From: Nitrospirae bacterium GWC2_42_7
GTDB taxonomy: Bacteria > Nitrospirota > Thermodesulfovibrionia > Thermodesulfovibrionales > UBA6898
Length of the DNA: 11,386 nucleotides
Assembly: GCA_001803645.1 (NCBI GenBank)
Contig: MHDW01000177.1
Coordinates: 812 to 12,197, forward strand
Direction of reading: 5' to 3'
Positions 1,396-8,327 of this stretch are shown piece after piece (position 1 is the stretch's first letter; each line of letters opens with the position of its first letter). The notes beneath the pieces were generated by a model, which had not been told where the DNA came from, did no database searches, and was given only the letters and a program-made list of their open reading frames with translations. The position numbers were made by a program, and so were the translations under genes.

Positions 1396-3279
1396 TTAAC
1401 CCTTAAGCAGAAACTTTCTGACATCTCCGGTGCGCAGTGTAATATTGCCTGCATCAAGATATTCAAGGAACGGAAGAGCATATTTTCTGGTAGTATTCAG
1501 AATGTCCCTGAATTCCGCAATAGTTATCTCTGGTTTCTTCGAGAAAAATGATTTGAGGGATTCGAGCATATTTTTGTAGGAATCAGCAGAAAGATAGATA
1601 GATTCGTTGATCCTCACCACTTTTCCCTCTTTTGACAGTATTTTCAATATATCATTCATCCGCCTTATGTCTATTTTCAGGGCTGTAGCCATTTCATCTC
1701 TTGTCGGAGGCTGGAACATCCCCTTACTAAGGAGACTGAGTATCTTTGCACTATGCTCTTCCTCCTTACCTGAGAGCTCTATCTTAAAATCAGAAAGTTT
1801 TATCAGATCCTTCTCGAGAGTAATTCTCTTCAGGCCTGAAAGCACAAAATTAAACAACCGGGGGTCTATCCTCAGATTTGCCCTGACCTCTTCTTTTGGC
1901 ATTCCGTGTTTAAGCGGATTCTTTTTATGAAATGCTTCTATCACTGCAAAAAGCCGTTCCCTCAATAGGTCTAATGATTTTTTATGCAGAATAATATCCT
2001 CATGCTGTATTATCTCACCTGTTTTTTTGAGTTTCTTCAGGGAATCAGCAATTTCTCCGGCTTCGGCATTTATCCATCCATTTATCAAGTTGATAAAAAT
2101 GCCGTTGACACCGGCCTTTTCTATCTTCACGCTTATCTTCTGTTCAAGGTTTCCTTCATAGAGCATTCTCAGATCATCTATCCCATCCTTCTTCTTCCTC
2201 TTCATTGGTGAAGGATCCAGGATCTCCCCGCCCCCGAGTGTCTCAAGGGGAGAAAATCTTCTGATTATATATCTGTCGCCAGCCATAGCAATAACAGGGT
2301 CCTGCAACCTGAACTGGCAAAAACAATTTTCTCCTGCCTTCAATTCCTCTTTTTCGTAAAGCAGAACTCTCGCAATGGTCTCAGATGTGCCTGAATAAAA
2401 ATGCACTAGGCTTTTGTTCTTAAGCACAGGCGTATCTGACAGCAGTTCAAGAAATGCATTTATTGTTTTTGTTGAGGAAAATTTAGATGGAATTACAGCA
2501 ACATCCCCTCTTTTCAGGTCCTCTTTTTCAACAGCCTGGAGGTTTATCGCTACTCTCTGCCCTGCGCCTGCGGTTTCTATGGGCTTGCCGTGGCTATGCA
2601 GCCCCCTTACTTTTGTCTTGATATTACAGGGCAATATTTCGAGAGGATCATCAATTGATATCGAACCTGACAGTGCTGTGCCTGTAATAACAGTGCCAAA
2701 ACCCTTCATTGTAAACACCCTGTCAACAGGCATCCTGAAAATCCCCCCTGAGGTTTTTGGGGCTATACTCATTGCCAGAGTCTTTATCTCCTGTTTAAGA
2801 AGCTCAAGGTTTTCGCCGGTCTTTGAAGACACCGGGATTATTGGAGAGTTTTCGAGAAAAGTATTCTTAACAAAATTTTTTATTTCGTCCTTCACCAGGT
2901 CAAGCCATTCCTTTTCAACAAGGTCGGATTTTGTAAGGGCTATCATTCCTGCCTTGATTTTCAGAAGATTGCAGATAGCAAGGTGCTCGCGGCTCTGAGG
3001 CATGATCCCTTCATCAGCAGCGATAACAAGAAGGACCATATCTATGCCTCCAGCACCTGCAAGCATATTTCTGATGAGCTTTTCATGTCCCGGCACATCA
3101 ACGATACCGACTGAAAGTCCGCTCTCAGGAAACAGAAGATCAGCGAAACCTATATCAATTGTGATCCCGCGTTCTTTCTCTTCCTTCAGCCTGTCAGGGT
3201 CTATTCCGGTGAGAGCCTTTACAAGAGAACTCTTGCCATGATCTATATGTCCGGCTGTACCGAGGATTATATTGCGCAT
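1396..3279 (-). CDS. selB: Selenocysteine-specific elongation factor SelB
   Basis: SelB is the GTPase that carries selenocysteyl-tRNA(Sec) to the ribosome and recognises the SECIS hairpin beside a UGA codon. The protein is about 627 residues, normal for the family. Counting from MRNIILG, the N-terminal G domain has the P-loop [12 protein letters not shown] (about 7-18), the switch segment [12 protein letters not shown] with the SelB-typical IGF, the G3 motif DVPGHE, G4 TKSDLV and G5 SSKTGE. EF-Tu-like beta-barrel domains follow (about 175-350), then C-terminal winged helices (about 370-627) ending in [12 protein letters not shown] and the usual basic tail. Two in-frame ATGs exist. The one at 3279 has AAGGA 7 nt upstream; for the one at 3285 (2 residues longer) the same AAGGA is only 1 nt away, so 3279 is preferred. 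selA is on the same strand further upstream, separated by a plus-strand gene, so selB probably has its own promoter. Confidence 0.97.
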
Positions 3280-3334
3280 TACCATGTCCTTAAAATTTTG
3301 ATAACATTATTGTCTGTTTATAAACTCTCTTTGT

Positions 3335-3426
3335 CTGTCATTCCGGCTTGTCAGGAATCTTTCTTTAAGAATGATTCCCCACCTGCCTACCGGCAGGCAG
3401 GCGCGCTTCGCTTGCGTGAATGACAG
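3335..3426. repeat. Dispersed inverted-repeat element (PAYRQAG-type), upstream of selB
   Basis: Outer arms CTGTCATTC (3335-3343) and GAATGACAG (3418-3426) are perfect 9-bp inverted repeats. An inner hairpin pairs CTGCC (3383-3387) with GGCAG (3392-3396) over TACC. GC-rich blocks contrast with AT-rich flanks. The plus-strand translation across the centre reads PPAYRQAGALRL, a peptide pattern I remember from repeat-derived false ORFs in many environmental genomes. It lies in the selB upstream region, ending about 50 bp before the selB start. It shares the GTCATTCC-type ends and the CCTGCC/GGCAGG core with the element at 3938-4069. Confidence 0.8.
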
Positions 3427-3509
3427 AGGAACGCCATTTATAACCAGTCTTTAATTATAGTATTTTAACAGGCTTATTTGTGCAGTCCTGTCAAATCTAT
3501 AATTTTAAT

Positions 3510-3542
3510 TTGACTTTTTTTTATTTTTTGATAGTTTATAAT
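3510..3542 (+). promoter_or_regulatory. Weak candidate promoter for the two-CW gene
   Basis: TTGACT (3510-3515) and a perfect TATAAT (3537-3542) stand in a strongly AT-rich tract upstream of the gene starting at 3577. The spacer is 21 nt, longer than the usual 16-18, so the two boxes may not work together; the TATAAT alone is the stronger element. A GGAGG Shine-Dalgarno follows at 3562-3566, 10 nt before the ATG. Confidence 0.35.
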
Positions 3543-3576
3543 ATATAGAATAGATAAACACGGAGGAATTGTTTTC

Positions 3577-3882
3577 ATGAAGAAACTTAATTGTTGGGAA
3601 TTCAAGAAATGCGGAAGAGAACCCAAGGGCGCTAAAGTACAAGAGTTTGGAGTATGTCCTGCAACAACTGAAAAAAACCTGGATGGTGAACATTATGGAA
3701 AAAATGCTGGCAGGTGCTGCTGGATACTTGCCGGCACATTATGCAAAGGCGAAGTACAGGGAACTTTTGCTCAAAAGTATAAGAGTTGTGTGGATTGTGA
3801 ATTTTATAAGCTTGTAAAAAAAGAGGAATTCCCTCATTTTGTGCTTTCAGCTGTTCTGTTCAAGAAGTTAAACAGAATATAA
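3577..3882 (+). CDS. Two-CW domain cysteine-rich small protein
   Basis: The protein has 101 residues with 8 cysteines: C6, C12, C27, C47, C48, C56, C71 and C74. The hallmarks are NCWEFKKCGR at the N-terminus (first CW), RCCWILAGTLC in the middle (second CW) and CVDCEFYKLV near the end, the pattern of the two-CW family found alone or fused to signalling proteins in anaerobic bacteria. The cysteine spacing suggests a bound metal or an iron-sulfur cluster, but the ligand is not known. There is no signal peptide, so it is probably cytoplasmic. A GGAGG ribosome site at 3562-3566 supports the ATG at 3577. It is the only plus-strand gene between selA and selB and is flanked on both sides by dispersed repeats, so it looks like an independent unit and need not be a selenium gene. 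The family call is good; the role is unknown. Confidence 0.85.
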   Translation: MKKLNCWEFKKCGREPKGAKVQEFGVCPATTEKNLDGEHYGKNAGRCCWILAGTLCKGEVQGTFAQKYKSCVDCEFYKLVKKEEFPHFVLSAVLFKKLNRI

Positions 3883-3937
3883 AAAACGTACAAATTACTT
3901 TTTTTAGGTCATAAGCAAAGACATCTATATTTCTTTC

Positions 3938-4069
3938 GTCATGCCCGAAGTTCTCAGTCGGGCCTGCCTGTCCGGTAGGCAGGCATCCATGGTTCTGCGA
4001 GTTTATCATAACAACTGTCAACCTTAGCCGGTGAAGAGTGGATTCCCGCTAACTACCTGCGGGAATGAC
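3938..4069. repeat. Dispersed inverted-repeat element, downstream of selA
   Basis: Outer arms GTCATGCCCG (3938-3947) and CGGGAATGAC (4060-4069) match at 9 of 10 positions when inverted. Inside, GCCTGCCT (3962-3969) pairs perfectly with AGGCAGGC (3977-3984), and ATTCCCGC (4042-4049) pairs with GCGGGAAT (4059-4066). The element ends 13 bp from the selA stop codon. The hairpins could act as a 3' mRNA boundary for selA and for the convergent two-CW gene, but no T-run follows, so intrinsic termination is not supported. It shares end sequences and the CCTGCC core with the element at 3335-3426. Confidence 0.8.
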
Positions 4070-4082
4070 AAATCGTGTAGTC

Positions 4083-5501
4083 TTAGAACTCATCAGGATT
4101 ACACAAGGCAAGAGTTATCGCAGCAACAAGGCTTTTGATCTCGTGCTTTTGTATTGTTCTGGCATCAAGCAGCAGTGAATTGCCTTTTATCCTTGCTATG
4201 ACCGGAGGAGAATTTCTTCTCAATCTTGACTCTAATACATTAACTGTTATATGAGCAGGCCTCAATGATACAGCAAAGGTCGGGAAATCAGCCTCAGGGA
4301 GCGAACCGCCGCCTGCCCTTGAGAAGTCCTTAATAATTTCGATTTCTGCATTGCTGATCTTTCTTCTAAGTTCAGATGCGATCTTTCTTGCCCTTGATAA
4401 TATACTTTCAGGAGTCTGAAAGAGCAGATCCAGCACAGGTATCTTCTTTATAACGTTCTCATCGTCCATATAATCCATGAGCGTTGCCTCAAAAGCAGCT
4501 ATGGTCATTTTATCAACCCTCATTGCCCTTGCCATCGGATTTTTCTGGGCCATCTCCACATATTTTTTTCTGCCTGCGATCACACCGGCCTGAGGGCCAC
4601 CAAGTAGTTTGTCGCCACTGAATGTTACGATATCAACCCCAAGCCTTGCGATCTCCTGAACAGAAGGTTCTGAATGAATACCGTGTGGTTTCAGGTCTAC
4701 AAGGCATCCGCTGCCGAGATCATACATAACAGGTATTCGATTCTTTTTCCCAAGAGAAATGAGTTCCTCAATCTTCACATCTTCAGTAAACCCTATGATC
4801 TTATAGTTTGACTGATGCACCTTCAGGATCATCCCTGTGTTTCTATTTATTGCCCTCTTATAGTCATAAAGGTGCGTCTTGTTGGTCGTTCCGACTTCTT
4901 TGAGCACTGCGCTGCCTGCTGCCATAACATCAGGCACCCTGAAAGAGCCGCCGATCTCAACAAGCTCGCTCCTTGAAACAATAACCTCTCTGCCTTTTGC
5001 GAGAGTGTTCAGACAAAGAAGAACAGCAGCCGCGTTGTTGTTTACGATAAACGCATCCTCTGCGCCGGTGATCTGCTTCAGGAGTCTTTTGGTATGAGTA
5101 TGCCTCTTACCCCTTTTTCCTGTTTCGAGATCATACTCTAAATTCGAATAGCCCCTCGCAACATCAATGATATTCCTGACTGCCTTTTCTGAAAGCAGCG
5201 CTCTTCCAAGGTTTGTATGTATGACTATGCCTGTTGCGTTAATAACAGGCATAAGGCTGTAAGATGAAAATTTCCTGATCCGCAGATCAATATCACTGAT
5301 AATTGCTTCCAGTGATATTTCAGGCGTCTGGCTGTCAAGAATGTTCTTCCTCTTTTCAGCAAGAACATCCCTTATAGCCTGGATAACAATTTTTCTCGGT
5401 GTTACAGAAAGCCATTGACTGCCTTCAGGACTCTTAAGCAGTTCATCAACCGACGGCAGGGATGAAAGCTGTTTCTTTTTTTCTTCGTTAATTGCCTTCA
5501 A
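4083..5501 (-). CDS. selA: L-seryl-tRNA(Sec) selenium transferase SelA
   Basis: SelA is the PLP enzyme that converts Ser-tRNA(Sec) to Sec-tRNA(Sec) using selenophosphate. The 472 residues match the usual 450-475 of bacterial SelA. An N-terminal helical tRNA-binding region (SLPSVDELL, about 13-80) precedes the conserved INATGIVIHTNLGRA (88-101), GYSNLEYDLETGKRGKR (117-133), NNNAAAVLL, SELVEIGGSFRVPDVM and EVGTTNKTH. The PLP lysine is K298 in SGDKLLGGPQAG, equivalent to K295 of the E. coli enzyme. The C-terminal domain continues to LLLDARTI and the end. All signature residues are present and there is no frameshift. The ATG overlaps the stop of the 92-aa gene by 4 bp, which indicates translational coupling. 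With selB close by, the organism very probably decodes UGA as Sec. Confidence 0.98.
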   Translation of the reverse strand: MKAINEEKKKQLSSLPSVDELLKSPEGSQWLSVTPRKIVIQAIRDVLAEKRKNILDSQTPEISLEAIISDIDLRIRKFSSYSLMPVINATGIVIHTNLGRALLSEKAVRNIIDVARGYSNLEYDLETGKRGKRHTHTKRLLKQITGAEDAFIVNNNAAAVLLCLNTLAKGREVIVSRSELVEIGGSFRVPDVMAAGSAVLKEVGTTNKTHLYDYKRAINRNTGMILKVHQSNYKIIGFTEDVKIEELISLGKKNRIPVMYDLGSGCLVDLKPHGIHSEPSVQEIARLGVDIVTFSGDKLLGGPQAGVIAGRKKYVEMAQKNPMARAMRVDKMTIAAFEATLMDYMDDENVIKKIPVLDLLFQTPESILSRARKIASELRRKISNAEIEIIKDFSRAGGGSLPEADFPTFAVSLRPAHITVNVLESRLRRNSPPVIARIKGNSLLLDARTIQKHEIKSLVAAITLALCNPDEF

Positions 5502-6329: not shown

Positions 6330-7178
6330 TCAATCAACCAACAGCGGGTCTATCAGTCCAGCCTCTTTAAAACCTTTTTCCCTCAGGCGGCAGCTGTCGC
6401 ATAAACGGCAAGGAACAAAGTTAGCTCGTAGGTCATAGCTCATAGTCTTTTCTTTTGAGTTCTTCTTTGTACTTTCAGCTATGAGCTTTGAGCCATGAGC
6501 CTTTACCGGTTGCGGATCATAACAGCTCCATGTCAATGAATAATCGAGTCCGAGTGTCGTGCCCATTTTAATTATCTCTGATTTTGTCATTGAGACAAGC
6601 GGCGCACGTATCGCAAATCTCATTTTTCCTTCAACAGAAGCCTTTGTTGCAAGGTTTGCCATCTCCTCAAAGGCCTTTAAATATTCAGGCCTGCAATCAG
6701 GATATCCGCTGTAATCTATTGCATTTGCGCCTATGAAAATATTTTCCGACTCAAGTACCTCTGCCCATCCAAGAGCAAAAGAAAGAAATATCGTGTTTCG
6801 AGCAGGAACATAAGTGACAGGAATCAGCCCGGAAGTTCGGAAGTCCGGAAGTTCGGAAGATATTGCCGGGAGACTTTTTCTTTTTATGTTTTTAAATTCT
6901 TTACTTCTGGCTTCTGACTTCTGACTTCTGACTTCTTTTGGTACTTCGATCTCCGAAGTCAGCGCAGACCCGCCGATCTCCCTGAGGTCAAATTTCACTA
7001 TCAGGTGTTTCTTGACATTCAGCGCTGCTGCAACCAGCTTTGCTGATTCGAGCTCTCTCCTGTGCCTCTGGTTATAGTCAAAGCTCACAGCATAAAGCTC
7101 ATGTCCTTCTGCTTTTGCCATAGATAAAACTGTTGAGGAATCCAGCCCACCGCTCAAAAGAACAACAGCACGTTTCAT
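6330..7178 (-). CDS. queC: 7-cyano-7-deazaguanine synthase QueC with two repeat-derived insertions
   Basis: QueC turns 7-carboxy-7-deazaguanine into preQ0 using ATP and ammonia, a step toward queuosine in tRNA. From the ATG at 7178 it has 282 residues, against about 220-235 normally. Visible motifs are the PP-loop SGGLDSS (9-15), [10 protein letters not shown] (33-42), [13 protein letters not shown] (121-133), [17 protein letters not shown] (150-166), [14 protein letters not shown] and the zinc cysteines C219, C257, C260 and C263. The extra length falls in two places: about residues 81-118 (contains RSQKSEARS and SELPDFRTS) and about 225-252 (between C219 and C257). Both coincide with tandem inverted repeats in the DNA and keep the frame. 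The enzyme is probably still active because both lie in loops. The start at 7178 matches family N-termini but has no Shine-Dalgarno. An in-frame GTG at 7265 would add 29 repeat-encoded residues. Confidence 0.93.
6423..6506. repeat. Intragenic inverted heptamer-repeat element in queC (zinc-site insertion)
   Basis: The left arm consists of 7-nt units TCGTAGG, TCATAGC, TCATAGT (6426-6446). The right arm consists of 7-nt units GCTATGA, GCTTTGA, GCCATGA (6478-6498). They face each other across a 31-nt spacer; AGCTCATAG (6437-6445) and CTATGAGCT (6479-6487) are perfect inverted 9-mers. It encodes roughly residues 225-252 of QueC, between zinc cysteines 1 and 2, where relatives have only a few residues. 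Limits are approximate. Confidence 0.82.
6825..6938. repeat. Intragenic inverted octamer/heptamer-repeat element in queC
   Basis: The left arm has 8-nt units CGGAAGTT, CGGAAGTC, CGGAAGTT (6830-6853) plus a partial unit. The right arm has 7-nt units (6903-6937), four of type ACTTCTG or GCTTCTG and a last ACTTCTT. The arms are loosely complementary across a 43-nt AT-rich spacer. It encodes about residues 81-118 of QueC, in the linker before VTYVPARN that is normally about ten residues long. The limits are set by where QueC family similarity stops and resumes. Confidence 0.85.
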
Positions 7179-7185
7179 TAAACAA

Positions 7186-7261
7186 AAGGGTTCAAGGATC
7201 CAAGGGTTCGAGCGCAAAGAAAAATGTTTAACTTGACCCCTCGACCCCTTCTTGTTCCTTT
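7186..7261. repeat. Inverted octamer-repeat element over the queC start region
   Basis: The left arm has 8-nt units AAGGGTTC, AAGGATCC, AAGGGTTC (7186-7209). The right arm has TTGACCCC and TCGACCCC (7233-7248), then a degenerate unit. The spacer is 23 nt and AT-rich. It fills most of the 96 bp between the DUF4388 gene and queC. The left arm ends 7 nt from the queC ATG. It has the same design as the two elements inside queC. Confidence 0.8.
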
Positions 7262-7274
7262 GCACTCATGTCTT

Positions 7275-8327
7275 CTAGTACATATCATCTTCTGTGCCTT
7301 CACTGCCGTCTGCACCAGCACTAATAAGGTAAAAAGAATCGTCCTTGATCCTGTAGATAAAAGGCCTTTTCCACGGATCTTTCTTGTTCGAAATAAGTCC
7401 AAGGTTCTCCGGATATTCCGAATGTTCAAATTTATAGGTCTCTATCAAAAACCTTAAGTCCTCTATCATCCCTGATGCCCTGAACTCTTTTATAATACTC
7501 CGGTCTTGTGATAGAACAATTGCAAAAGAGAGCAAAATCGAGATGATAATTACAACCACAGGCAGATAGCCTAAAAAAGACGGAAGTTCTTTTTTGGGAG
7601 CTACAGTATCTTCTCTGACAACTAACGGCACTTCATCAGCTGCTTCGATAGCGCCTTTTTCCATAAGAGAAAGCAAGGTTTTTGAGACCTGAAAATTGTC
7701 AAGGCCGGAGATATCTATAATGGTGCTTACGTCATTCTCCCCGTCAACGCACGAGAAAATCTCCTTTTCATCATCTGTCAGATTGAAGGTCGATTCGTTC
7801 TTTATGATGAATACGGTATCAAGTGTGAGTTTTCCCTTTATCTGAGACCATTCATCTACTATCCTCAACCCTTCCATAAGAAGATGCTGGGTATCAAGTG
7901 AGATCAGAAACTCTTTATCCGGTGGAACGCCCTGTGCTGTAAACTCGTATGTGCCTTCTTTCCAGCCAAACACCTGAATAACGGTCTCTGTTATCTGGTT
8001 CTTCAGTATCTCCTTGATTATTTCTTTTTTGACAAGATCCCTGTTAATCAGAATATTGCCAAGTTTATTTCCGGTGGTGCGCTGCTCTTCAAGGACAGCC
8101 TGAAGGTCCTCCTCCTTAATAATGCCCTTTTTTAACAGTATCTTGCCGATCCGGTTGTCTTCTATCCTTCTTTTCGATTCAGCGCTGACAATGTTCCCTT
8201 CCAGAAACAGCATCCTTACTTTGTCCATCCTGCCTTCGAGAACAAGAATGCCGGTCTTCCTCTGAAAACATATCAGTTGAAGAATATCAGCAAGGCCAAA
8301 ATCCTTTAAAGATCCTTCTAAAGCCAT
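7275..8327 (-). CDS. DUF4388/PATAN protein with transmembrane helix and pseudopilin-like C-terminus
   Basis: The protein has 350 residues and an unusual domain order. Residues 1-56 match the DUF4388 (PATAN-type) start: LEGSLKDFGLADILQLI, RKTGILVLEG, LFLEGNIVSAES. Residues 57-110 resemble the GspE/MshE N-terminal domain (IGKILLKKGIIKEEDLQAVLEEQ), which binds nucleotides such as c-di-GMP in some relatives. A helical region (about 110-230) follows, then one membrane helix (254-273). Residues 285-350 look like the tail of a GspG-type pseudopilin: LIETYKFEHSEYPENLGLI, DPWKRPFIYR and a final SAGADGSEGTEDD, the acidic loop that binds calcium in GspG. The domain order suggests cytoplasmic sensing and a periplasmic head, but the N-terminal prepilin methylation motif is absent, so it is not a normal pseudopilin. 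The start overlaps the upstream gene by 10 bp, implying coupled translation. Confidence 0.88.
   Translation of the reverse strand: MALEGSLKDFGLADILQLICFQRKTGILVLEGRMDKVRMLFLEGNIVSAESKRRIEDNRIGKILLKKGIIKEEDLQAVLEEQRTTGNKLGNILINRDLVKKEIIKEILKNQITETVIQVFGWKEGTYEFTAQGVPPDKEFLISLDTQHLLMEGLRIVDEWSQIKGKLTLDTVFIIKNESTFNLTDDEKEIFSCVDGENDVSTIIDISGLDNFQVSKTLLSLMEKGAIEAADEVPLVVREDTVAPKKELPSFLGYLPVVVIIISILLSFAIVLSQDRSIIKEFRASGMIEDLRFLIETYKFEHSEYPENLGLISNKKDPWKRPFIYRIKDDSFYLISAGADGSEGTEDDMY

Follow-up and report, generated by a model that had tools for sequence, protein, structure and literature searches.

The queC locus and its three repeat elements

The window, by which we mean the whole stretch of DNA analyzed, comprises 11,386 nt from Nitrospirae bacterium GWC2_42_7 (GCA_001803645.1, contig MHDW01000177.1, positions 812 to 12,197 of the forward strand). 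The assembly, referred to below as G000, is 71% complete and holds 2,579,021 b. On the minus strand of the window lie queC (6330..7175; PF06508, E = 1.8e-69) and, upstream of it, a DUF4388/T2SSG-like gene (7275..8327; PF14332 and PF08334). An earlier note on this DNA had described three elements of one design, two in the queC frame and one at the start of the gene. The placement was correct: elements 1 and 2 are inside the queC frame, in predicted loop sites 2 and 1, respectively, and element 3 is in the junction between queC and the DUF4388/T2SSG-like gene. The shared design held clearly for elements 1 and 2; for element 3 the layout was found but the support was weak.

In element 1, an arm of 7-nt units of the TAGCTCA type (6422..6445; 3.4 copies with 82% matches by Tandem Repeats Finder [TRF], also called by our own detector) faces an arm of the AGCTATG type (6477..6500; called by TRF). 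The two arms form inverted repeat I3, 82% complementary, and pair as a hairpin. Element 1 is a good hairpin, since its fold beat those of shuffled sequences both as DNA (z = -3.38; 2 of 200 shuffles as good) and as queC-strand RNA (z = -4.70; none of 200). Element 2 has arms of different period, an array of 8-nt units (CGGAAGTT) at 6830..6859 (TRF, 3.8 copies, 90%) and a facing array of 7-nt units (ACTTCTG) at 6903..6936 (TRF, 4.9 copies, 92%). Its fold gave z = -2.20 as DNA (6 of 200 shuffles as good) and z = -1.22 as RNA (23 of 200). Element 3 (7186..7261) combines a weak 8-nt arm at 7186-7212, in which imperfect copies at 8-nt spacing from position 7186 (direct repeat family D2) are 82 to 91% alike, with a shorter, C-rich facing arm recognized by eye at about 7229-7255. 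It was called neither by TRF nor by our detector, and its fold was inside the shuffle range (DNA, z = -0.75, 39 of 200; RNA, z = -1.31, 20 of 200); it has the right layout but is marginal. A function through RNA-level pairing was rejected because, as RNA, elements 2 and 3 did not fold clearly better than shuffles.

Run on the window, the detector called four facing arms, two from element 1 and two from element 2. In 200 shuffled versions of the window (first-order Markov), the mean was 0.02 and the maximum 1. This agrees with the earlier claim that such structures exceed chance. Both arms of element 2 have matches elsewhere in G000, but these are single-arm matches; whole-element copies of the window's elements were not found in this 71% complete assembly.

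Other features of the window were recorded alongside. A GC-rich palindromic stretch of the GGGGAGG type at 1288-1376 is one copy of a repeat dispersed in G000; the copy in contig C190 (L048) matches both the window copy and that in contig C30 (L037) at 83%. The interval 1396-5501 holds SelA (PF03841), with a SelB-like elongation factor recognized nearby by eye from its translation. Two CTGCCTACCGGCAGG-like palindrome copies (3375-3425 and 3955-3990, by eye) flank a small gene. A tRNA search of the window found none.

Recurrent occupation and turnover of the queC sites

For comparison, 80 queC loci were gathered by likeness to the window's protein, with two of the six search words lying inside the window's own inserts. 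Of these 80 related loci, 50 carried arrays in one of the two loop sites or in the 120 b preceding queC (40 loci at site 1, 30 at site 2, and 15 upstream). The limits of site 1 could not be set in 3 loci and those of site 2 in 5, and 9 loci in which a motif was not found were omitted from the site tables used for the insert and covariation comparisons. Across loci the arrays mostly differ in sequence. Arrays with periods of 6 to 8 nt numbered 111 in the 71.5 kb made up of queC and 120 b upstream and 66 in the remaining 1,283 kb of the 80 loci, so that their density in queC and its junction is about 30 times that of the rest of the locus sequence. Since the sites are recurrently occupied in relatives, the three elements within about 840 b, which the earlier note had weighed as separate copies of one architecture, are not three independent surprises. 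Sites 1 and 2 fall in short stretches between aligned blocks of 3bl5, the Bacillus subtilis QueC, and this alignment predicts that both are loops.

An insert of 78 nt occurs at site 1 in 13 loci. In seven of them (L056, L063, L064, L076, L100, L101, and L104) the detector found no array, so that the repeat-free inserts that the earlier note had held to speak against its proposal do exist in part. Four of the seven come from mutually close relatives, and one of the seven carries an inverted repeat of a different kind. In L067 and L094, units are kept in the right half alone (by eye). We read the array-less inserts and half-arrays as decayed elements, although a plain long loop is also possible.

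Closely related genomes differ in their elements. Over 14 kb of alignment, loci L080 and L090 share 94.7% identity, and their element-free queC blocks reach 88, 98, and 97%; all three queC sites nevertheless carry different elements. Turnover outside queC was followed by comparing nine regions of genome G062 with G071: five aligned, L285 matched partially, and L282, L291, and L293 had no full-length orthologous match. Within five genes, six orthologous sites could be compared: two differ by presence or absence and four by the element present. In thiE, four units in G062 are missing from G071 (24 nt net), and an array at site a of a KAS gene is present in G062 only; different elements occupy a second KAS site, a PMT glycosyltransferase gene, the L286 gene, and a NadB-like gene. 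Both queC loop sites likewise differ between L082 (G062) and L052 (G071), among the clusters listed (the first 75 from L051 onward, of 146 clusters in all). At thiE and KAS site a, the sole presence/absence sites, no target duplication was visible; the flanks there have diverged.

The arms of an element match each other within a species. The left half of each element was compared with the reverse complement of the right half from its own or from another species at the orthologous site, using 28 nonredundant sequences of 35 for site 1 and 35 of 43 for site 2. Means were 11.43 within versus 6.74 between species at site 1 (best of 5,000 permutations, 9.57) and 11.14 versus 6.43 at site 2 (best permutation, 7.86). 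A complement-only control was also raised, but less (7.82 versus 6.33 and 7.63 versus 5.98; reached by 0 of 2,000 permutations). Site 1 and site 2 elements were alike within a genome (18.9 versus 12.6; 0 of 5,000 permutations; 35 loci, uncorrected for species kinship), most strongly in L068, L085, L082, L130, and L066. At the level of units, likeness between arms was 4.64 of 7 versus 3.82 between elements (50 pairs). Unit order, in contrast, was not mirrored between arms (510 versus 504.7, standard deviation 7.0; 36 elements), and hairpin copying of whole arms is therefore not visible. Our reading is that the arms had a common origin and then changed separately. Hairpin copying might be expected to leave a mirrored order of units, and this was absent overall among these 36 elements, the one clear case being L092:17442-17532, where unit variants are mirrored between arms (permutation P = 0.027, uncorrected); one such element in 36 at P ≤ 0.05 is about the chance rate.

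Extent of the heptamer design and the dispersed family D

The earlier note had proposed a class of such elements, and arrays were indeed found in G000 and its relatives, in frame in genes of unrelated function. Twenty G000 contigs (207,467 b) held 13 arrays with periods of 6 to 9 nt, several with a facing arm, versus 0.33 per shuffle. Across 100 loci from G000 and Nitrospirota relatives (1,561,995 b), period 7 accounted for 162 of 229 arrays with periods of 5 to 12 nt, versus one of five in a single shuffle. A facing reverse-complement match of at least 12 lay within 100 b of 55 of the 162 period-7 arrays, compared with 13 for direct, 18 for complement-only, and 6 for reverse-only controls. 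Similarly, among 152 adjacent array pairs (gap of at most 60, periods within 1), 50 were reverse complements at score 10; at the same score the direct, complement, and reverse controls gave 8, 15, and 6.

The design is unevenly distributed. Sampled densities of period-7/8 arrays per Mb were 447 in G037, 220 in G039, 145 in G038, 121 in G050, and 120 in G059, with a lower range of 81 in G058, 48 in G000, and 12 in G034; samples of 60 to 80 kb each from G040, G041, G046, and G047 had none. A pattern of three GTYMRRA units matched in 19 of 61 genomes, including once in G047, and its reversed control gave 1, 2, and 2 matches in G000, G022, and G059 and none elsewhere. In element-rich samples, 58 of 117 period-7/8 arrays were inside open frames of at least 200 codons, against a background of 67%. 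Hosts of in-frame arrays in G000 include UbiD, CarB, RecR (two arrays), a KdsB-like transferase, a BadF-like ATPase, TatD, and a NuoG/Fdh-like protein; those in G062 include KAS, ThiE, a Mur ligase, PMT, NadB-like and HolB-like proteins, and an aminotransferase. The host genes in L226 and L286 had no Pfam match.

Family D, with units CGTRATG/CATYACG, is a dispersed family of this design. Its alignment contains 22 elements (23 rows, one of them a second match within one element) from unrelated places in seven genomes, and most of the irregular unit order is common to them. The 60% consensus has outer ends ACCGT...ACGG, with the right arm ending in ACGG, and the loops are AT-rich and of widely differing length. 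Because the rows were picked by CGTAAYGAGT, only the outer ends and the remaining order are independent of that choice. A 17-nt family D word matched 15 times in 6 of 10 chosen genomes in mostly unrelated surroundings, with L232 and L241 looking like one sequence at two contig ends. Counting overlapping matches, a pattern of three CGTRAYG units was found 29 times in G062 (18 listed places, two apparently one sequence), 13 times in G061, and 40 times in G065; it was found 0 times in G071, and the reversed control gave one match overall. Despite this absence, G071 holds diverged family D copies. By its distribution, family D is a mobile or copied element family. The earlier suggestion of a class of small elements is supported by family D, dispersed with common ends; for the window's own elements, only single-arm matches were found in G000.

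Beyond family D, unit sharing within sampled genomes was generally weak (P = 0.07 over seven genomes; P = 0.0085 without G038). A high-copy family with a fixed loop was not found in the case of family B, whose loop pattern matched once across 61 genomes; family B is therefore not high-copy. In the one-contig genome G038, larger dispersed repeats, bordered by tandem units, were seen several times (L135, L136, L137, L145, L147, and L149). Many G038 arrays lie in or beside such larger repeats, so arrays there can also ride on bigger elements. GC-rich tiny palindromes of the TCCGCCGCGGCGGA type, a second small-palindrome class nested in the heptamer-arm class, were seen in or beside heptamer arms at L052:1687-1700, L074:10312-10326, and L083:9970-9983.

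Origin of the elements and comparison with known systems

These findings point to a class of tiny spreading elements able to enter protein genes without breaking them. Our best explanation, which we consider probable, is that the window's elements are part of an order-wide class of tiny palindromes spread by copying. Members would have two facing arms of 6- to 9-nt units, mostly 7 nt, around a short AT-rich loop. An element would be copied to new places in the genome; family D shows such dispersal by its distribution, and a like origin of the window's elements is suggested by common design and common sites. A copy would survive where the frame is kept and where it lands in a loop, a linker, or a gene junction. 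Units might later be gained, lost, or homogenized within each arm, and the element might decay or be overwritten by another at the same tolerated spot. Copying may take place when single strands fold into hairpins during replication or repair, with no dedicated transposase or reverse transcriptase involved. More tentatively, these could be transposase-free mobile palindromes copied by hairpin formation or template switching at the replication fork, in frame in essential genes and overwriting older elements; if so, sister species should differ in their genome-wide repeat word with the sites unchanged.

We give a smaller chance to the arrays having been made in place: in a loop or junction where inserts are tolerated, polymerase slippage would have begun from a small palindrome, which would explain why the arms match. 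The diversity of units (138 distinct classes among 287 period-7 arrays), their unmirrored order between arms, and the loop inserts of equal length without repeats all fit such slippage, and a heptamer excess together with the slippage idea has already been published (PMC4692102). Slippage in place should, however, favor multiples of three in frames, and period 7 dominates there (157 of 222 arrays in open frames of at least 200 codons; 47 of 76 outside the queC set). Identical units also recur at many unrelated sites within one genome, and most of the irregular unit order is common to the 22 family D elements. A slippage-prone 7-nt unit thus accounts for variation in arm length and not for the sharing of units between unrelated places.

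An unlikely reading is that a RAYT/Y1 transposase, since lost from some genomes, moved the elements, which would then be miniature elements of the REP kind. The elements are palindromic and dispersed, REPs within genes are known (PMC3733652), and Y1_Tnp is present in 49 of 61 relatives. Against this, no Y1/RAYT transposase was found in the 71% complete G000, and the family D consensus, the only one inspected by eye, has no GTAG or CGTC end tag. Enzymes were searched by family across genomes, rather than as RAYT genes flanked by arms, and array richness was gauged by one unit pattern that is blind to other units. On this measure Y1 was not associated with the arrays (16 of 19 pattern-bearing versus 33 of 42 other genomes; P = 0.74). 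G050, rated 100% complete, has no Y1 and yet 8 period-7/8 arrays in 66 kb, and G040 has 3 Y1 matches and yet no such array in 80 kb. The linked transposase or RAYT-type protein that the earlier note had advised looking for found no support in G000 or across relatives.

Other enzymes did not stand out by the same pattern either. The reverse transcriptase family PF00078 was present in 8 of 19 pattern-bearing versus 14 of 42 other genomes (P = 0.57), with no match in array-rich G037, G039, G049, and G053. Loss of the hairpin nuclease SbcCD was tested on too few cases to decide, SbcD being above the cutoff in only 6 of 61 genomes (1 of 19 versus 5 of 42; P = 0.66). Mismatch-repair loss did not fit either: MutS_I was present in 59 of 61 genomes and missing from G037, but also from pattern-free G011. 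G037, rated 93% complete, is at once the densest sampled genome and one with no MutS_I match. None of the tested enzymes tracks the arrays as gauged by this pattern. Since slippage also misses the unit sharing and the dominance of period 7 in frames, we favor copying through hairpins by the replication or repair of the host, as an inference.

Least probable is that the different queC elements are old alleles swapped between species by homologous recombination rather than new insertions: L080 and L090 are 88% identical in one 150-column block beside site 1, L080-L066 identity climbs to 93% in the element-bearing block, and L066 mixes the site 1 type of L080 with the site 2 type of L090. Short recombination tracts may contribute to the L080/L090 differences. 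Such exchange covers spread between alleles and not the origin of elements or the dispersed family D, nor does it account for the six sites that differ in five genes other than queC.

Spread by copying, as we prefer to read it, would provide a second and richer setting, outside Rickettsia, for protein-gene invasion of the kind known from Rickettsia palindromic elements (RPEs), and a link to bacterial heptamer repeats, whose excess is unexplained. With three recurrent sites and many elements in dozens of species, queC of this order is a natural test bed for the origin, replacement, and decay of tiny elements. There is also a warning for annotators, as hydrophilic insertions, for example of the ASRITHHASR kind, may be elements or their remnants and not protein innovations. 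Titles and abstract openings in the openly licensed literature yielded no account of such elements in Nitrospirota. Older work exists on the cyanobacterial STRRs.

The closest described repeats are the heptamers of Xanthomonas and Nostoc (GGGAATC, GGGGAYT), reported as runs of 7-nt units, most often four, with 70 and 75 cases of two close convergent runs in two xanthomonads, strong variation at the same intergenic spots among close species, and no known function; slippage was proposed for them (PMC4692102). As there, the heptamer runs here exceed chance and form close inverted pairs. By that description, however, the published repeats are of one G-rich unit type and, in the two xanthomonads, lie 89 to 93% between genes, whereas here there are many units and about half of the arrays are inside long open frames, in frame in core enzymes. 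TAACTGA heptamers are also reported from Beggiatoaceae (PMC4679880). In the P6b hairpin of a cyanobacterial tRNA-Leu intron, degenerate heptanucleotide repeats pair and vary in copy number, as they do here; that hairpin, as described, occupies one RNA-intron site with no dispersal into protein genes (PMC3488679). REPs are, like our elements, small dispersed palindromes, described as 20 to 40 b long with GTAG/CGTC-tagged ends, some within genes, with movement of the GTAG type attributed to RAYT (PMC3733652); unlike them, family D lacks the tag, and no Y1 association was seen for the arrays.

RPEs are described as palindromic inserts that keep the reading frame of the protein genes they enter and lie at exposed positions; at one site, orthologues may hold different RPE groups or an insert lacking a typical RPE (PMC3767692, PMC10969869). 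The earlier comparison with them is apt in effect, since here too elements are in frame in unrelated protein genes and differ at an orthologous site (PMC3767692). Near-copies at unrelated sites of one genome, as in RPE families, exist for family D; for the window's own elements none were found in G000. Compared by description, RPE families measure about 100 to 150 b, while the elements here measure about 70 to 114 b, have tandem-heptamer arms, and belong to another phylum. Facing heptamer arrays and in-frame palindromes are each known separately; what is new is their combination here.
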